Source: a virus
Strand: one strand, 5' to 3'
Length of the DNA: 31,829 nucleotides
Virus record (IMG/VR): IMGVR_UViG_3300029319_000272
Span: 1-31,829 of that record
The position numbers were made by a program, and so were the translations under genes. Shown piece by piece: positions 11,508-22,319 of the stretch. Each line of letters begins with the position of its first letter. The stretch's first letter is position 1. The notes under the pieces were generated by a model. That model ran no database searches. It had not been told where the DNA came from and saw only the letters and a list, made by a program, of their open reading frames with translations.

Positions 11508-12348
11508 CTGTCTTATCCTCTAGCTGTGGAGTGTTAGTCAAAGATGTCCTGTCCATGATATCAAAACCACGACTGTTTGCAAAGTCTGTTGGGCAGTGCG
11601 CCCACTTTTCTGCACACGCCTCTAACCACTGCACTGTGTGGTGATGCTCTGGTGCTTTGCCTTGTTTAATAATCTCGTTTTCCCACTGCAAATATGAGAA
11701 CACTTCTGCCTGTGCTTGCGCTGCATTAATTCCTAAATCAAAAATATAGATAAGATTGCCTTCATCTATCTGACCATTACGACTTCTAGCTGCGTTCAAT
11801 GCTTGCTTCATACAAGTCATAATGTGGTACTTAACTTCTTCTAACTCATAGTCTTCTTCGGTAAGCTCATCCTTGCCGATCTTCTTCATCAGGTTGTCAT
11901 ACTGATTGGTAAAGAAGTTTAACTTTCTTACCGCACCTTCTACATATCCACGAGAGCTTGCTGCCTGCGCTTGCTTTTCGTTAATCTTCACCTCAAGCAT
12001 TTCACGCTCAAGATCGTCTGTCTCAGTCTCAAGTTTACGTTCTAGCTTCTTGAGCTTTATTTCTTCTTTCTTCATCTTAAAGTAGCCTTCTTGCAAAGCT
12101 GCTTTGGTCTTTTCAATCTCAGCCAAGCTATGCTTGATAGAGCGGATAGGAGTAATAGCCGTGACATCGAGCGTCACGCTCATCATCTGTGAATGTGACT
12201 TATAGAAGTTACTAGATGCCTTTGCGATTGCAGGAGCTTTCTCCTGTATGTTTGCCAACATAGATTTGTATTCAGGCTTCGCTTGTGGAAGCTGAATGTT
12301 TATGTCGGGCGTAGTTAAAGCTACTTCTTGTGTTGTATCTTTAGGCAT
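11497..12348 (-). CDS. Coiled-coil protein of the tail/fibre region
   Basis: I choose the ATG at 12346-12348 (protein begins MPKDTTQEVAL, 283 aa), because it overlaps the upstream stop as TAATG, the junction used at many genes here. A longer reading to 12435 would read 29 residues through the end of the previous gene. Residues about 75-180 are Lys/Glu/Leu-rich heptad-like sequence (IKLKKLERKLETETDDLE), a strong coiled coil. The C-terminal third is mixed and helical, with ALNAARSRNGQIDEGNLIYI. Similar coil-containing proteins occur among structural genes of marine myo- and podoviruses. No enzymatic motif is seen. Confidence 0.75.
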   Translation of the reverse strand: MPKDTTQEVALTTPDINIQLPQAKPEYKSMLANIQEKAPAIAKASSNFYKSHSQMMSVTLDVTAITPIRSIKHSLAEIEKTKAALQEGYFKMKKEEIKLKKLERKLETETDDLEREMLEVKINEKQAQAASSRGYVEGAVRKLNFFTNQYDNLMKKIGKDELTEEDYELEEVKYHIMTCMKQALNAARSRNGQIDEGNLIYIFDLGINAAQAQAEVFSYLQWENEIIKQGKAPEHHHTVQWLEACAEKWAHCPTDFANSRGFDIMDRTSLTNTPQLEDKTDGA

Positions 12349-12866
12349 TATGACGGCTTCGTTGGCATGGTGTGAGTATGAGGCCATCCTGATGCAGTTG
12401 GCAAATCCCTGAGTGCTTGACGGTACGTTGCCCACTCAGCTTTCTTTTCTGTGCTCAAAGCAGTGTCGGAAAGCTGTGTCCAATCAGATTCATCAAGAAG
12501 TGCTGTTCTAGTGTTTCTTGCGCTTTCGGCGACTCTTGCATCTACATTAGCGCGATATGCTGTGGTCTGTGCATCAACCGTTTGTACATCACCATTTTCG
12601 TCTGTGTATTCCCTAAATACTGGCCCAACAGAATTGACCGTCATCCAGTTGCCATTAGAATCTTGTTCTACACCAGAGCGAAAACTAAATTCGTATGGTG
12701 GTGTTACTGAGGCTTGAGCACTCTCCATAACAGGATCTGCACCAAGGCCGTCTAGTCTTTCTTTAGTAAGCGTTGGTTCCAACGTAGGTCGGGTTTTCTT
12801 ATGCATGATACGGAAAGTTGTTTCCGTGACTACATCCCCTGTTTCTCGTATTCTAATTAGTCCCAT
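12348..12866 (-). CDS. Phage tail-assembly-chaperone-like protein
   Basis: A 172-aa protein. The C-terminal part, with ARNTRTALLDESDWTQLSD, KAEWATYRQALRDLP and WPHTHTMP, matches the short helical domain found in proteins next to tail fibre genes (the Phage_tail_APC type, from memory). The N-terminal part is beta-like and contains EFSFRSGVEQDSNGNW. It follows the LamG fibre gene by 17 nt, the usual place for a fibre chaperone or assembly factor. A role in fibre folding or attachment is inferred from this. Confidence 0.72.
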   Translation of the reverse strand: MGLIRIRETGDVVTETTFRIMHKKTRPTLEPTLTKERLDGLGADPVMESAQASVTPPYEFSFRSGVEQDSNGNWMTVNSVGPVFREYTDENGDVQTVDAQTTAYRANVDARVAESARNTRTALLDESDWTQLSDTALSTEKKAEWATYRQALRDLPTASGWPHTHTMPTKPS

Positions 12867-12883
12867 GACTAAACTCCTTTATG

Positions 12884-15526
12884 TTATGCTGCTATTGCGT
12901 AGAAGATGAACGTAGCACCAGAATTGTTAATACTTGCCCCACTGTGATTTACTATGAAACCTGCGTCATATGGGTCTAGCTTATCATCAGTGCTCGTTTC
13001 CGCACCATTTGAGTTAAGTTTTAAGAAAGGATCGTTCCCTGCAACAATACCTCTTTTAGTATCAAAAACCATCCAGTTTCCAGTGCTATCAGCACGTTTA
13101 ATAAGCACAAACTTAGCACCTGATGTAAAACCACAATCTATTTGCCTTCCATCTGTTGCATCGCCAGTATAGCTTCCCACCTTGGATACACCTGCTACGG
13201 TAGCGAAAAGGTAGGCTATATATGTTGTGCCAGAATTACTAACCTTACTACTATCTCCTAAACTAAACTGTGTTGCTGTGGGTGTTGTATTGTTCCAGTA
13301 TATCCTAGATGCAGTAGCATTATTTCCATTTAAAAACAAATTATCTGTATTACCCAAAGCAGAATGATATACCGCCCAATCGTCTGCCGTACTTCTACTT
13401 TTTACCCACATCATTTCAGGCACTACACCAAGATTATGATTAACTGTTTGTGCAGCCCCTGCCCCTACATAAGTAACCACATCAAAATAGCCAGGTGCAC
13501 GTTTCCACATCCATCCATAATAAGCATTAGCACTTCCAGTTGTATTATAAACACCATTCATAAAGTCATAATCTAAATTACTGTCTGCTACTTCAGCAGC
13601 AGTAGAATTGGTTTTCATATACAGGTTCTCTGTTAAACGAGAAGAGATAAACCAATCTCCCGTTCCATCAATCTTTTTTTCAAAATACATATCCACTGGA
13701 AAAGTTGATCTATAGGCAGGTGCTTTACTGTCTCCTCCTTGACCACTTGTAGATATAGCAAACACATCACTTGCACTCTCTGGCTCTGCGAGTGGGCCAC
13801 GTCGTATTGCCGTGTAGATGTAGTCACCTGATCCAAAATTTTTTGTTTCAAAACCTGTGGCTGTTGGAAAACCTACATCTACTGTAAATTCAGCTTCAGC
13901 AGCACTAGAGTTAGCGTATACATATGGGTCATTATTATTTCCCACATCGCCTACTTGCCACCCACGCATAGTATCCCACATGTACCAACCTGCGGAACCA
14001 TCTGTTTGTTTTACCATCAGCCATTGAGGTTCAAACCCAAGTGTTATGGTATCAGTGCCATCCGATGTGAATGAACCACATTTAATTATATCTTGATCTT
14101 GATTGGGGCCGAACCCACCATCATTATTGTTGTGTGCGAATAGGTAGGCTACGTATGTATCTCCATTATCATTTGTGCCACCAGCTGTTCCTACTGTAAA
14201 TTGTGTGCTTGTTGGTTCAGTATCATTCCATCTAGAAGTTTGAGTAAGAGCTTGATCTGTCGTATTTAAAAATATTACTTTAGTAGCGCCTAGTGACCTA
14301 TGAAAAACATTCCAAGATACTGAGCCATTTGTTTTCTTAACTAAAATCATGCCTGGAACTGAACCTAAGTTATGGCTAATATTTTGTGTAGAACCTGTGC
14401 CGCTATACGTCACAACATCAAAAAACTTAGGGGCTTTGCGGAATGTCCAAGCGACAAATTCGTGATTGTTTGCATTTGCCCTTGATCCAGTGCCTAAACT
14501 AAAACCATTTGAATTAAAAGCGATAACTCCTGCCCCTCCAGTGTGTTCAGCAATAGTATCACTTGATTCTAAAGCTTTATCAGCACCTCTTGCTGTATCA
14601 TATAATTGATGATCTCTACTATCACTTCTTTGTTTAGTCCAAACCAAACCACCTTCGCCAGTATTGCCAGTGAAAGGGCTAGATGATGAAGATTGTGGAT
14701 CGCCTTTTACTGTAAAAGAAATCTTATTTGGGCCTTCATCAAGTAAGTTGTTATCAGTGCAAATAAGAAGCTCTGTGCCAGATATTGCTGTCAATGGCCC
14801 AGTTGGTGCAGTAAAATTACTAGTATAAACAGCAGTCCCTAAAACCACCCTTACGTTAGATAACTTACCGTCAAACTCTAAGCCGTCTGATACACTTCGT
14901 TGACCTATCTCTAACACACTACTTGTATAGTTATTACTATCAGAATAGTCACTTCCAATCTGTGTTCCGTTTTTAAACATCTTTGTAGTGCCGCTAGATC
15001 GTGCAACTGCTATGTGATACCACTGACCAGTAGAAACAGTAGCAGAATCAACAATTCTATCTGCACTATCCCAATAAAACCTTATTTTAGTATCATTATT
15101 AATTCCAATCAAAAAACCAGTTGAGCCGCCTGACCTATTATCAAAAATATTAATAGTTCCAGATACACTATCTGGATACATCCAAAACTCTACAGTGAAA
15201 TCACCAGTTCCATAAGCAAAGCTGTGAGATGATGACTCAAGGCTATCACCAGTACCATCAAAATCTACAGAACCTGCAATATTATCACCAATATTTATTC
15301 CGTTGTTGATGTTCTGTGCAGTGCCATTTCCCTCATATAAAAAGGTTGAAAAAACATCCGTAATATCAGTAGTCACATTGCCAACCGTAGGCCATTTGTT
15401 TTTCTTCTGTAGCTCCATGACCTCATCTAACGACCACACCCCTGGAGCGGAGGTTGACTCTAAGTTATTAGCAGGCTCAACAGCCGTGGTTCTAATTATA
15501 TTTGCCTCGTATCGTTTATCCGACAT
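12884..15526 (-). CDS. Large tail fibre protein with LamG domain and four C-terminal repeat modules
   Basis: An 880-aa probable receptor-binding protein. The start has GVWSLDEVMELQKKNKWP (29-46), related to the GVWSL...WP start of the neighbouring propeller protein, which may be a common anchoring peptide. Residues about 85-245 form a LamG/concanavalin-like lectin domain (SVDFDGTGD, FTVEFWMYP, WYHIAVARSSGTTKMFKNG, SNVRVVLG). The rest is four related modules of the marine phage DUF7483 type as I recall it, each with a strand like FFDVVTYSGTGSTQNISHN or its diverged form, an (L/M)I/VK substrate line and a YLFA-type strand (VAYLFAHN, IAYLFAT). It shares a TAATG junction with the propeller gene. 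Carbohydrate binding is inferred. Confidence 0.83.
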   Translation of the reverse strand: MSDKRYEANIIRTTAVEPANNLESTSAPGVWSLDEVMELQKKNKWPTVGNVTTDITDVFSTFLYEGNGTAQNINNGINIGDNIAGSVDFDGTGDSLESSSHSFAYGTGDFTVEFWMYPDSVSGTINIFDNRSGGSTGFLIGINNDTKIRFYWDSADRIVDSATVSTGQWYHIAVARSSGTTKMFKNGTQIGSDYSDSNNYTSSVLEIGQRSVSDGLEFDGKLSNVRVVLGTAVYTSNFTAPTGPLTAISGTELLICTDNNLLDEGPNKISFTVKGDPQSSSSSPFTGNTGEGGLVWTKQRSDSRDHQLYDTARGADKALESSDTIAEHTGGAGVIAFNSNGFSLGTGSRANANNHEFVAWTFRKAPKFFDVVTYSGTGSTQNISHNLGSVPGMILVKKTNGSVSWNVFHRSLGATKVIFLNTTDQALTQTSRWNDTEPTSTQFTVGTAGGTNDNGDTYVAYLFAHNNNDGGFGPNQDQDIIKCGSFTSDGTDTITLGFEPQWLMVKQTDGSAGWYMWDTMRGWQVGDVGNNNDPYVYANSSAAEAEFTVDVGFPTATGFETKNFGSGDYIYTAIRRGPLAEPESASDVFAISTSGQGGDSKAPAYRSTFPVDMYFEKKIDGTGDWFISSRLTENLYMKTNSTAAEVADSNLDYDFMNGVYNTTGSANAYYGWMWKRAPGYFDVVTYVGAGAAQTVNHNLGVVPEMMWVKSRSTADDWAVYHSALGNTDNLFLNGNNATASRIYWNNTTPTATQFSLGDSSKVSNSGTTYIAYLFATVAGVSKVGSYTGDATDGRQIDCGFTSGAKFVLIKRADSTGNWMVFDTKRGIVAGNDPFLKLNSNGAETSTDDKLDPYDAGFIVNHSGASINNSGATFIFYAIAA

Positions 15527-16488
15527 TACTGAACCCCTCCACTATCATTGCAAGAAGCATTTACTGCATACCTCGCTACAGTAAGATCACCGAAGTCTTG
15601 TGCATTACCAGTGGATGCTATTGTAATATAGTCCATAGTATTTGTTACAGGGCCTCCTATTCCACCCCCAAAAATGCCTCTTGTATTTGTGCTTGCACCA
15701 TCAAAATAATGTCTTGCTACAGTAAGATCACCGAAGTCAGTCGCATTGCCTGTGGAGGCTATAGTAATATAGTCCATAGTAGTTTGAGCACTGCTAGTAT
15801 AACCACCACCAAAAACACCTCTAGTTGAAGAGTTTACTGCGCCATTACCATATCTAGCTTGTGTTAAATCCCCAAAGTCGGTTGCATTGCCTGTGGAGCC
15901 TATTGTGACATAATCCATCATGTTTGAATTGCCTCCTGCATCATAGCCACCCCCAAAAACAGCTCTGGTTGGGCTTGCAACACCTCCTGAAGCATAAGCA
16001 GTTGCTACTGTTCTATCTCCAAAATCTGTGGCATTACCTGTTGAGGCTATAGTAACATATTCAATAACATTTGAATAACTAGGATTAAGACCACCTGCAA
16101 CTAATCCTCTAGTTGCATTAGAAGCACCAGAACCATTTCCAGTAGCAGCGAGTAAATCACCAAAATCTGTAGCGTTTCCAAGAGTTGTATATGTAAAATA
16201 TTCAATTATGTTTACATAACCACCGCCTGTTGGTGCGCCCCCTCCTACAACACTTCTTGTTGTTGATCCAAAAGCTCCTGAGATATAATAACGAGCAGCA
16301 CTTAAATTTCCAAAATCTGTAGCGTTTCCAAGAGTTGCTGGGGTAATGTAATCAACTGTATCTAAAGCATTTCCTGTTGTTATTTCTAGACCACCGTAGA
16401 ATAAAGCTCTTTGAAAAACCAACGTAGGCCAATCTGAAACATTCTGCATCTGCGTTGTGAGCGACCATACACCTTGATAATTTGGCAT
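15526..16488 (-). CDS. Six-repeat beta-propeller fibre protein with GVWSL anchor
   Basis: A 320-aa protein. Residues 1-25 hold YQGVWSLTTQMQNVSDWP, akin to the LamG fibre start. The rest has six copies, about 47-50 residues apart, of a kelch-like unit with core TRGVFGGG, MDYITIASTGNATDFGDLT and a variable ARY loop. The last copy ends in an abbreviated SCNDSGG, which could pair with the first strand and close a six-bladed propeller. The DNA of neighbouring repeats is nearly identical in places (for example 15575-15597 and 15716-15738), showing recent duplication. It would be displayed on the tail as a receptor-binding or host-range module. It overlaps both neighbouring genes by TAATG. The propeller is inferred from repeat number. 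Confidence 0.83.
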   Translation of the reverse strand: MPNYQGVWSLTTQMQNVSDWPTLVFQRALFYGGLEITTGNALDTVDYITPATLGNATDFGNLSAARYYISGAFGSTTRSVVGGGAPTGGGYVNIIEYFTYTTLGNATDFGDLLAATGNGSGASNATRGLVAGGLNPSYSNVIEYVTIASTGNATDFGDRTVATAYASGGVASPTRAVFGGGYDAGGNSNMMDYVTIGSTGNATDFGDLTQARYGNGAVNSSTRGVFGGGYTSSAQTTMDYITIASTGNATDFGDLTVARHYFDGASTNTRGIFGGGIGGPVTNTMDYITIASTGNAQDFGDLTVARYAVNASCNDSGGVQ

Positions 16489-17666
16489 TATGAAAGTCCT
16501 CCGTGATTAGAAGATACTCCTGTTAAATAAGCTCTTGCTGAAGTTAAATCCCCGAAGTCAGTCGCGTTGCCTGTCGTATCTATTTCAACATAATCCATAA
16601 CATTTGAACTTGAATCACCACCTCCAAACACCGCTCTTGTTTTAGAACAAACGCCACCTCTACCATTTAAACTTACTGTAAGGTCTCCAAAGTCTGTGGC
16701 ATTTCCTGTTGAAGCAATTGTAATGTACTGAATAACATTTTGTTGAGAACTACCGCCTGCCATTAATCCCCGTGTCGCACTAGATGCCCCTGCCATGTAA
16801 TATTTGTTTGTTAACAAGTCTCCAAAATCTGTTGAGTTACCCGTTGAGGCCATAGTGATGTAGTCAATACGGTTTGTGTCAGTTCCTGCACCCTCACGAT
16901 AACCTCCCGCAGCAATTCCTCTTGTTGTGCTATTGACAGTTCCATCATGCATTGAACCACGATCCTGTGTTAGATCACCAAAGTCAGTCGCATTACCAGT
17001 AGATGCAGTAGTAAAGTAATCTATGGTGTTATATGATGTTGAGGAGTCTTTACCACCTTGAAAAATAGACCGCGTATCGTTTGAACATCCCATACCACCT
17101 GTTCTCGATAGCGTTAAATTTCCAAAATCAGTAGCGTTCCCTGTTGATGCTATTGTTATGTAATCAGCCCTATCTGTAGACTGAGTGCCACTTTCTCTAA
17201 AAGTAGATATGATTCCCCTCGTAGAGCTAGATGCTCCTGATAAGTCTGTTCCGCCTGCGGAAAGATCACCAAAGTCAGTGGCGTTGCCAGTGGTTGTAAT
17301 ATCTATATAATCCATCACATTACTATAACCACCCCCTGCAAACACACCTCGTGAAAAGGCAGGCGTTACACTCGTGCTTGCATCACTAGGCGCAGAATAA
17401 CCAAACGCATTGATTGCCCAGACATTAAATGTGTAGGCGGTGCCATTAGAAAGACCTGTAACATTAATCGGAGAAGAAGTCCCAGAAGCACCGACGCCCG
17501 TGTTTGACTGCGCTCTATATCCAGTAATTGCAGAACCACCAACGTCCGTCGGCGCGGTAAATGCAACACTAGCTGAAGTGTTTCCTGCTGTAGCACTAAC
17601 CCCTGTAGGGCTGTCTGGTGCATTTAGCCCGTCTTGACCTATAAAGCCGCCTCTACCTCTAGCCAT
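16488..17666 (-). CDS. Fibre protein: Fn3 domain plus six-repeat beta-propeller
   Basis: A 392-aa protein. The N-terminus is basic and Gly-rich (RGRGGFIGQDGLNAPDSP). A fibronectin type III domain covers about 18-104 (PTGVSATAGNTSASVAF, ITGYRAQSNTG, INVTGLSNGTAYTFNVWAIN, APSDASTSVTP). The remainder has six copies of the same unit as its neighbour (STRG...GG, ...DYITIASTGNATDFGDLT), again ending in a short closing strand (VSSNHGGLS). The two proteins are clearly paralogous in the propeller half but have different N-terminal domains, a sign of module swapping. Receptor binding is the likely role. Confidence 0.82.
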   Translation of the reverse strand: MARGRGGFIGQDGLNAPDSPTGVSATAGNTSASVAFTAPTDVGGSAITGYRAQSNTGVGASGTSSPINVTGLSNGTAYTFNVWAINAFGYSAPSDASTSVTPAFSRGVFAGGGYSNVMDYIDITTTGNATDFGDLSAGGTDLSGASSSTRGIISTFRESGTQSTDRADYITIASTGNATDFGNLTLSRTGGMGCSNDTRSIFQGGKDSSTSYNTIDYFTTASTGNATDFGDLTQDRGSMHDGTVNSTTRGIAAGGYREGAGTDTNRIDYITMASTGNSTDFGDLLTNKYYMAGASSATRGLMAGGSSQQNVIQYITIASTGNATDFGDLTVSLNGRGGVCSKTRAVFGGGDSSSNVMDYVEIDTTGNATDFGDLTSARAYLTGVSSNHGGLS

Positions 17667-18771: not shown

Positions 18772-19692
18772 TTACGCTGCTATTTCTGTCCAAGTTGTTC
18801 CTGGTGTAGGATCTATTTCCGCCCATGTACTATTGGGGTTAGGCGTAATATTAGACCAAGATGTTCCTGGAGCAGGAATTATATTACCGTAAACTAACAC
18901 AGATCCTACGCTTGCGCTAGTGCTTAAACCTGTAACAGTTACAGAGGATGGTGCAACGATTGTTACACTTCCAACTTGACCTGTTGCGGTTATGTCTCCT
19001 GCAAACGCAGGAACTCTTTGAAATGTATTGAGTGTGACAGTTCCAACGGACGCAGTTGCAGCAATACCTGTAACGGCTACATTTGGCGCATCTCCTGAAA
19101 CAGTCGGGCCTGTTAACTCTCCCGTCGCTGCAATACCTGTTGGCGTAACATCAACACCAACACCTTCACTAATTGTAACAGAACCAACACCGCCTGTAGC
19201 AGCAAGACCAGTAGGCGGAACATTGACTCCAATGATTATAGTTGTGCCTGACCCAAGCGCAGATGTTGCAGATACACCTGTTACGTTTACATTGACGCCA
19301 CCGCCTTGAACAACAACAGGAGTACCAACAAAGCCCTCACCCTCTAAACCTGTAACTGAAACAGTCTGTTCTGTAACAAGACTTACATCACCAACAGATC
19401 CTGTGGCGGCTATACCAGTAAGATCAACACTGTTGTTACCTTGTACTGTTACACTACCAAGACCCGAAGTTGCCGCCAGTCCCGTGACTGATACAGATAT
19501 ATCTTCTCGAACAACAGCAGTGCCAACCTGACCCTGCATGGCTGAAAGAGTAGATTTTTCACCACCCCAAGCGGTTTCACCCCAAGTTAATTCACCCCAA
19601 CCGTTGAGAGTGTGACCAACACGAACAGGAACCGCTTCACCCCAAGCGCCCTCACTCCATGTTCCACGACCCCAACCGTTGATGCTCGCCAT
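18772..19692 (-). CDS. Repeat-built fibre-like protein with GWG motifs and nine VTGxxATG repeats
   Basis: A 306-aa low-complexity beta protein. The N-terminus holds two Trp/Gly units (NGWGRGTWSEGAWGEA and NGWGELTWGETAWGG). The core consists of about nine units, roughly 22-30 residues apart, of the form VxVTGxAATGxxGSVTV (for instance VDLTGIAATGSVGDVSL). The C-terminus has three Pro/Trp units (TSWSNI, STWAEI, TTWTEI). One copy of the core unit occurs at the end of the genes at 23001-23441 and 8931-9227, and the GWG motif recurs in the nozzle protein. The repeats may form a stalk or an Ig-like fold. No enzyme motif is present. Confidence 0.78.
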   Translation of the reverse strand: MASINGWGRGTWSEGAWGEAVPVRVGHTLNGWGELTWGETAWGGEKSTLSAMQGQVGTAVVREDISVSVTGLAATSGLGSVTVQGNNSVDLTGIAATGSVGDVSLVTEQTVSVTGLEGEGFVGTPVVVQGGGVNVNVTGVSATSALGSGTTIIIGVNVPPTGLAATGGVGSVTISEGVGVDVTPTGIAATGELTGPTVSGDAPNVAVTGIAATASVGTVTLNTFQRVPAFAGDITATGQVGSVTIVAPSSVTVTGLSTSASVGSVLVYGNIIPAPGTSWSNITPNPNSTWAEIDPTPGTTWTEIAA

Positions 19693-21782: not shown

Positions 21783-22319
21783 TTACCCATTGCGAGTAAA
21801 CTTCTGCGGCCTTGCTGCACCACTACCACGAGCTACTCCCCCTCTTGCTCTTCCTTTTGATTTCATTTTACCACCAATTTGTTTCTTCATAGCTCCACCC
21901 TTAGCCATGCCCTTCTTTTTCATCATGCCCCCGCGCATCTTCTTGACGGCTCCGCCCTTGGCGTAACCCTTCTTCTTCATGGCTCCTCCTTTAGCCATAC
22001 CTTTTTTCTTCATCATGCCGCCGCCCATTTTTTTAACAGCACCACCTTTAGACATGCCTTTCTTCTTCATTGTGCCGCCCATCTTCTTTTTAGCAACACT
22101 CTTTTTAGTTGTGCTTTTTTTCTTAGTAGCACCGCCTTTTTTCATTTTACCCACGCCATCAGCAGCAAAGAATGGAACTTTCTTCCCATCTTTCTCTACC
22201 ATTCTAAGCTTGCTACCTTTCTTCATAGCAATTGGTTTTTTCTTCATAGCTCCGCCTTTTGCGTAGCCTTTCTTTTTCATTGCGCCACCTTTGGCGTAAC
22301 CTTTTTTCTTCATAGCCAT
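21783..22319 (-). CDS. Lysine/glycine-rich repeat protein (MKKKGYAKGGA units)
   Basis: A 178-aa protein with at least seven copies of an 11-residue unit such as MKKKGYAKGGA or MKKKGMAKGGA, plus VKKMGGGM-type spacers. One less repetitive core at 35-60 (GSKLRMVEKDGKKVPFFAAD) looks folded. The C-terminus is basic and Gly/Arg-rich. The composition resembles histone H1 tails or DNA-condensing peptides. It lies next to the adaptor-like genes and close to several other basic small proteins. DNA binding in the virion or assembly is an inference. Confidence 0.75.
   Translation of the reverse strand: MAMKKKGYAKGGAMKKKGYAKGGAMKKKPIAMKKGSKLRMVEKDGKKVPFFAADGVGKMKKGGATKKKSTTKKSVAKKKMGGTMKKKGMSKGGAVKKMGGGMMKKKGMAKGGAMKKKGYAKGGAVKKMRGGMMKKKGMAKGGAMKKQIGGKMKSKGRARGGVARGSGAARPQKFTRNG

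Follow-up and report, generated by a model that had tools for sequence, protein, structure and literature searches.

The 31.8-kb window (the whole stretch of 31,829 nt that was analysed) comes from an uncultured virus and carries genes for a portal, a major head protein, an endolysin and tail proteins on the minus strand. The portal and a virion structural protein have their nearest relatives, at ~30–45% identity, in phages such as Pelagibacter HTVC027P/HTVC023P, Roseobacter CRP-901/902 and DSL-LC04; judged by these nearest isolates, the source phage is probably marine. The features considered here are collected in Table 1. The 880-aa protein listed there also matches PHROGs profiles of tail fiber and of virion structural protein. 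Two other repetitive proteins are encoded in the window. At 21783–22319 lies a very basic protein of 178 aa, most of which consists of MKKKG-AKGGA repeats. The other (18772–19692, 306 aa, no PHROGs match) has a WG-rich start followed by V-G(L/I)AATG-VG-V repeats and may be a tail component.

Table 1. Features of the gene array and its flank in the window
Feature	Positions	Strand	Basis
P392, Fn3-mounted six-blade propeller protein, 392 aa, array slot 1	16488..17666	-	ORF, six units, Pfam fn3, predicted model
Mount 1: MARGRGGFIGQDGLNAPD tail and one Fn3 domain, aa 1-105	17352..17666	-	Pfam fn3; conserved in relatives, where it bears other heads
P392 propeller head, aa 106-392, six units	16491..17351	-	Unit HMM, predicted model
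TAATG stop/start overlap, P392/P320	16486..16490	-	Sequence
P320, short-GVW-mounted six-blade propeller protein, 320 aa, slot 2	15526..16488	-	ORF, six units, predicted model
Mount 2: MPNYQGVWSLTTQMQNVSDWPTLVFQ, aa 1-26	16411..16488	-	Conserved in relatives; bears propeller or glycine-rich heads
P320 propeller head, aa 27-320	15529..16410	-	Unit HMM; DNA match to L001
TAATG stop/start overlap, P320/LamG/DUF7483 protein	15524..15528	-	Sequence
Slot 3, long-GVW-mounted 880-aa protein; LamG 90-227, DUF7483 281-575 and a second stretch	12884..15526	-	Pfam
Tail-fibre assembly (chaperone-like) gene, directly downstream of the array	12348..12866	-	PHROGs 4912, 4628, 188

The ORFs of P392 and P320 are both intact. 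Behind their unlike N-termini, each protein has exactly six units of 44–51 aa (64–82 bits per unit by HMM), in agreement with the six kelch-like repeats reported in a preliminary description of this DNA. The core given there, GNATDFGDL, is shared by the two proteins, with single-residue variants (GNATDFGNL, GNATDFGDR, GNAQDFGDL and GNSTDFGDL). Across the whole propeller P320 and P392 are 44.7% identical (E 6e-67); the pair of six-unit repeats is real, and chance is excluded as its source. In both proteins the last unit ends after the would-be inner strand of blade 1. The two anchors named in that description were recovered as well: Pfam fn3 matches residues 18–98 of P392 (E 1.3e-8), and P320, with its MPNYQGVWSL start, has GVWSL in common with the LamG/DUF7483 protein (SAPGVWSL...WP). 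The latter likeness is short, about 20 aa, and taken as one pair it is weak (45% over 20 aa, E 0.011). A weak Pfam HNH match to P320 (E 0.016) and antibody matches among PDB sequences (E 0.02) were taken as chance.

The fold was predicted with AlphaFold as monomers, from alignments of 64–66 sequences. The models have pLDDT 93.1 and pTM 0.89 for P320, 91.0 and 0.82 for P392. In each, six four-stranded blades form a closed ring, as in kelch-type propellers; with models of this kind and a fixed number of units, an open solenoid, the outcome that together with any other fold was to count against the preliminary description, is ruled out. In structural searches (Foldseek, VIA-align) the top solved matches were the kelch domains of human KLHL12, KLHL17 and Keap1 and the designed SAKe6 propellers, with Z of 35–40 over the whole head. 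The P320 head superimposes on SAKe6BE at 1.9 A (Z 39.7, 278 residues) and the P392 head at 2.0 A (Z 36.8, 271 residues); KLHL17 and Keap1 rank just under it. The repeat itself has the features of a kelch repeat (44–56 aa, a double Gly and conserved aromatics): the unit has 47 columns, GG is conserved in 85/91% and Y in 80%, and F (96%) stands where kelch usually has W. Neither protein matches a Pfam Kelch family at E <= 1.

In the models, strand B of blade 1 opens the head, and the head's C-terminal strand (310–313 in P320) takes the place that strand A of blade 1 has in Keap1. This strand would thus supply strand A of blade 1, and the ring would close as it does in Keap1. The earlier suggestion that the incomplete last unit could close the ring is therefore right so far as a model can tell. 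No obvious trimerising segment was seen in P320 or P392; many known fibre tips are trimers.

The number of units is strict among relatives. Intact proteins from IMG/VR number 466 with six units, 77 with 12 and four with 18, counts that are not independent events as the loci are metagenomic and partly related. The first sample (complete ORFs from 285 loci) gave 331 proteins with six units, 47 with 12, one with 18 and none with 7–11. The second was fetched by a DNA pattern for one 8-residue motif and is free of length bias because the pattern covers that single motif only; among its proteins absent from the first sample, 135 have six units, 30 have 12, three have 18 and 23 have other numbers. 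Several of these 23 have a unit-length stretch lacking a match and several are parts of split genes. Likewise, among the few proteins in which 5, 7 or 11 units were detected, several show an unmatched unit-length stretch or one very weak match. In 73 of 79 12-unit proteins the longest gap follows unit 6, and these proteins are thus taken as two rings. The 935-aa, 18-unit protein at L262:1757–4561, on a GVW-type mount, may hold three six-blade rings in one chain. Such counts fit an obligatory six-blade ring.

Some propeller genes are split. We found 12 junctions (two of them, in L146 and L188, near-identical), with the units cut 1+5, 2+4, 3+3 or 3+9, so that the sum is always 6 or 12. All 12 lie in the BC loop, which joins strands B and C, and the stop and start codons overlap there or are close. 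Examples are at L129:3729–4808, L106:3799–4775, L139:6597–7636, L146:434–1602 and L210:2509–4567, in L371 and elsewhere. Sequencing error is unlikely to be behind the splits: the junctions vary (TAATG, TAAATG, ATGA or longer) and so do the blades, while the loop is constant. The two chains of a split propeller would complete each other's blade.

Variation is concentrated on one face of the ring. Over 2,550 aligned units the entropy is ~3.0–3.4 bits in the columns of the BC and DA loops vs ~1.2 in those of AB and CD; changes of length occur in the BC loop. A four-stranded propeller has its BC and DA loops on one face, with AB and CD on the opposite one; GNATDFGDL starts in the CD loop, which is part of the conserved face. 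Sixteen independent pairs of closely related heads give, at similar synonymous divergence in all parts, dN/dS of 0.59 for BC, 0.47 for DA, 0.18 for AB, 0.15 for CD and 0.13 for the strands; values below 1 in the BC and DA loops fall short of showing positive selection. The ligand of Keap1 is bound by its DA and BC loops. Strand B begins on the AB side; the N-terminal mount therefore exits the conserved face, and the variable face would then point away from the virion. We suggest that the mount, leaving by the conserved AB/CD face, docks on the virion and that the variable BC/DA face would contact the host surface.

Mount classes in relatives were assigned by HMM or regular expressions. Where the gene after an Fn3-mounted gene bears a mount, it is nearly always of the short-GVW class, in 81 cases with a 6-unit head. 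The short-GVW gene is often followed in turn by a long-GVW gene, which bears a 6- or 12-unit propeller or a DUF7483 head. P392, P320 and the LamG/DUF7483 protein on its long GVW mount form one such ordered array of three slots. On Fn3 mounts there are 134 six-unit heads, with glycine-rich and DUF7483 heads few in number; the heads on GVW mounts are propellers, glycine-rich or of the DUF7483/LamG kind. The preliminary description was right to see two heads on different mounts, but its 'two receptor options' was incomplete, as the array has three ordered slots. The glycine-rich heads on these same Fn3 and GVW mounts are of at least two kinds, with ends such as FPSTNTGDL and TFTGSGSITF (in genes starting at L183:4094, L022:8396 and L089:4683), and resemble adhesin tips.

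Swaps of repeats or anchors among related phages had been proposed as a check, and heads are indeed traded between mounts. In another phage, L001, the Fn3 mount bears a head with 95% identity to that of P320; at the DNA level the identity is 96.5% over window positions 15524–16410, from the first residue of the head through the stop codon, and the mounts differ. Further pairs with the same head on different mounts are found at 80–91% identity (e.g. L097 v. L102, L090 v. L101 and L084 v. L148). On a tree of 277 heads with three mount labels the label changes 99 times, with a minimum of 2 and a mean of 118.5 after shuffling; the association of head and mount is therefore weak, though not nil. 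Well-supported branches alone force at least 11–18 changes per mount.

The same data bear on the idea, put forward in the preliminary description, of a duplicated module. A recent tandem duplication within the source phage could have given two copies of one receptor-binding module, as is suggested by two adjacent genes with like folds and 44.7% identity. Yet heads in slots 1 and 2 of the same genome have a median identity of 45.7%, vs 45.2% between genomes. Heads of one genome are thus as unlike as heads of different genomes, which argues for independent draws from a pool and against duplication in place; moreover, the nearest relative of the P320 head sits on the other mount in another phage, and the slot order is old and common to many phages. 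We regard a recent tandem duplication as extremely improbable, the identities of head pairs refuting it. There may have been an ancient duplication, since blurred by exchange.

In architecture the proteins are like receptor-binding proteins with an N-terminal anchor and an exchangeable distal domain: mounts are constant and heads are exchanged. Exchangeable receptor-binding heads are the best explanation of the observations, the shortness of the mounts being a point against it. Host recognition is suggested by the replacement of propellers by lectin-like and glycine-rich heads, the adjoining tail-fibre assembly gene, the variable face and the frequent exchange. It is highly likely, in our estimate, that P392 and P320 serve a podovirus-like phage as tail-attached receptor-binding proteins, being closed six-blade kelch-type propellers on slot-specific mounts in a three-slot array with pooled heads. 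A place on the virion, binding to a receptor and a glycan or protein as the ligand are what we infer for both proteins. Each head, starting from strand B of blade 1 and closed by a strand A added from the C-terminus, would be drawn from a shared pool by recombination, and one phage would therefore show up to three unlike binding surfaces.

Propellers in phages may also be enzymes, and P392 and P320 could be sialidase- or lyase-like depolymerases cutting host surface polysaccharide, as in some tailspikes: among the depolymerases predicted for Klebsiella phages, propellers with six blades are common (PMC11448410), and coliphages such as K1F have propeller endosialidases (PMC4901313). However, the closest structural matches of our heads are binding kelch domains, and no blade-specific conserved catalytic residues were present in either alignment. 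The conserved polar residues belong to the sixfold structural core; the sole exception, a C-terminal His (91–95%), is absent from P320. Enzymatic function thus appears very improbable. Fn3 domains are known in decoration proteins, so that the propellers might decorate the virion or serve in particle adhesion (cf. Ig-like decorations), holding it near a surface without choosing a host. This we consider very improbable, given that the array adjoins a tail-fibre assembly gene, that LamG/DUF7483 and glycine-rich heads replace propellers, and that rapid exchange, like the variable face, fits recognition at the strain level.

For the receptor-binding reading, the wider picture is rather probably that of a widespread, undescribed array of marine phages, with three slots, in which a slot-specific mount may take any head from the pool (6- or 12-blade propellers, glycine-rich or DUF7483/LamG heads) and some propellers are made of two separately translated chains zipped within a blade (1+5, 2+4, 3+3). 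How uncultured marine phages choose their hosts is an open question, to which the array would bring a readable code: one finds the slot and reads the head, and the expected site of specificity is marked by the variable face. Unit numbers fixed at 6, 12 or 18, together with gene splits that recur in the BC loop, make a natural experiment on propeller closure and on break-tolerant loops.

A tblastn search of 50,697 phage records turned up nothing closely related to either propeller, against hundreds of matching contigs in IMG/VR; the family has therefore probably gone unnoticed in cultures. Among cultured phages P320 has no match at 1e-5; for P392, with a limit of 1, there are matches to the Fn3 region and one weak match in S-SKS1. 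Seven loci, most of them MAG contigs, came from scanning the genomes of bacteria and archaea. In the stretches examined, the three closest isolates have no propeller heads. In the tail-region stretch examined of phage DSL-LC04 (OR003939), which has no propeller head, the long-GVW mount occurs twice, once with a glycine-rich head and once with a multi-LamG one. We found no published description of this propeller family or slot array in the part of the literature covered by our search; marine phage islands are known to be rich in host-recognition genes (PMC3909814).

Propeller domains have been proposed as the receptor-binding part in phi11 Gp45, PRD1 P2 and PhiKZ gp131C (PMC4901313). These have five blades (phi11 Gp45; distorted in PRD1 P2) or seven (PhiKZ gp131C), unlike the six of P320 and P392, and neither interchangeable mounts nor split genes are described for them in that paper. 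There phi11 Gp45 was shown to be a trimer, whereas P320 and P392 are known here from monomer models. Jumbo phage CBB has, like our source phage, propellers in the form of kelch-domain proteins, one of which (CBB_552) was found in the mature virion; a slot array is not reported in that study (PMC5259590). Predicted models of kelch-domain proteins of S-SKS1 and BcepSaruman match P320 at about 22–24% identity. To the kelch domains of KLHL12, KLHL17 and Keap1 and to SAKe6 our heads are alike in their six four-stranded blades, in a whole-head fit of ~2 A and in the C-terminal strand that closes blade 1. They differ in sequence (11–18% identity), in the F for the usual W and in the absent Pfam Kelch match, and where KLHL12, KLHL17 and Keap1 have BTB/BACK, P320 and P392 have phage mounts.
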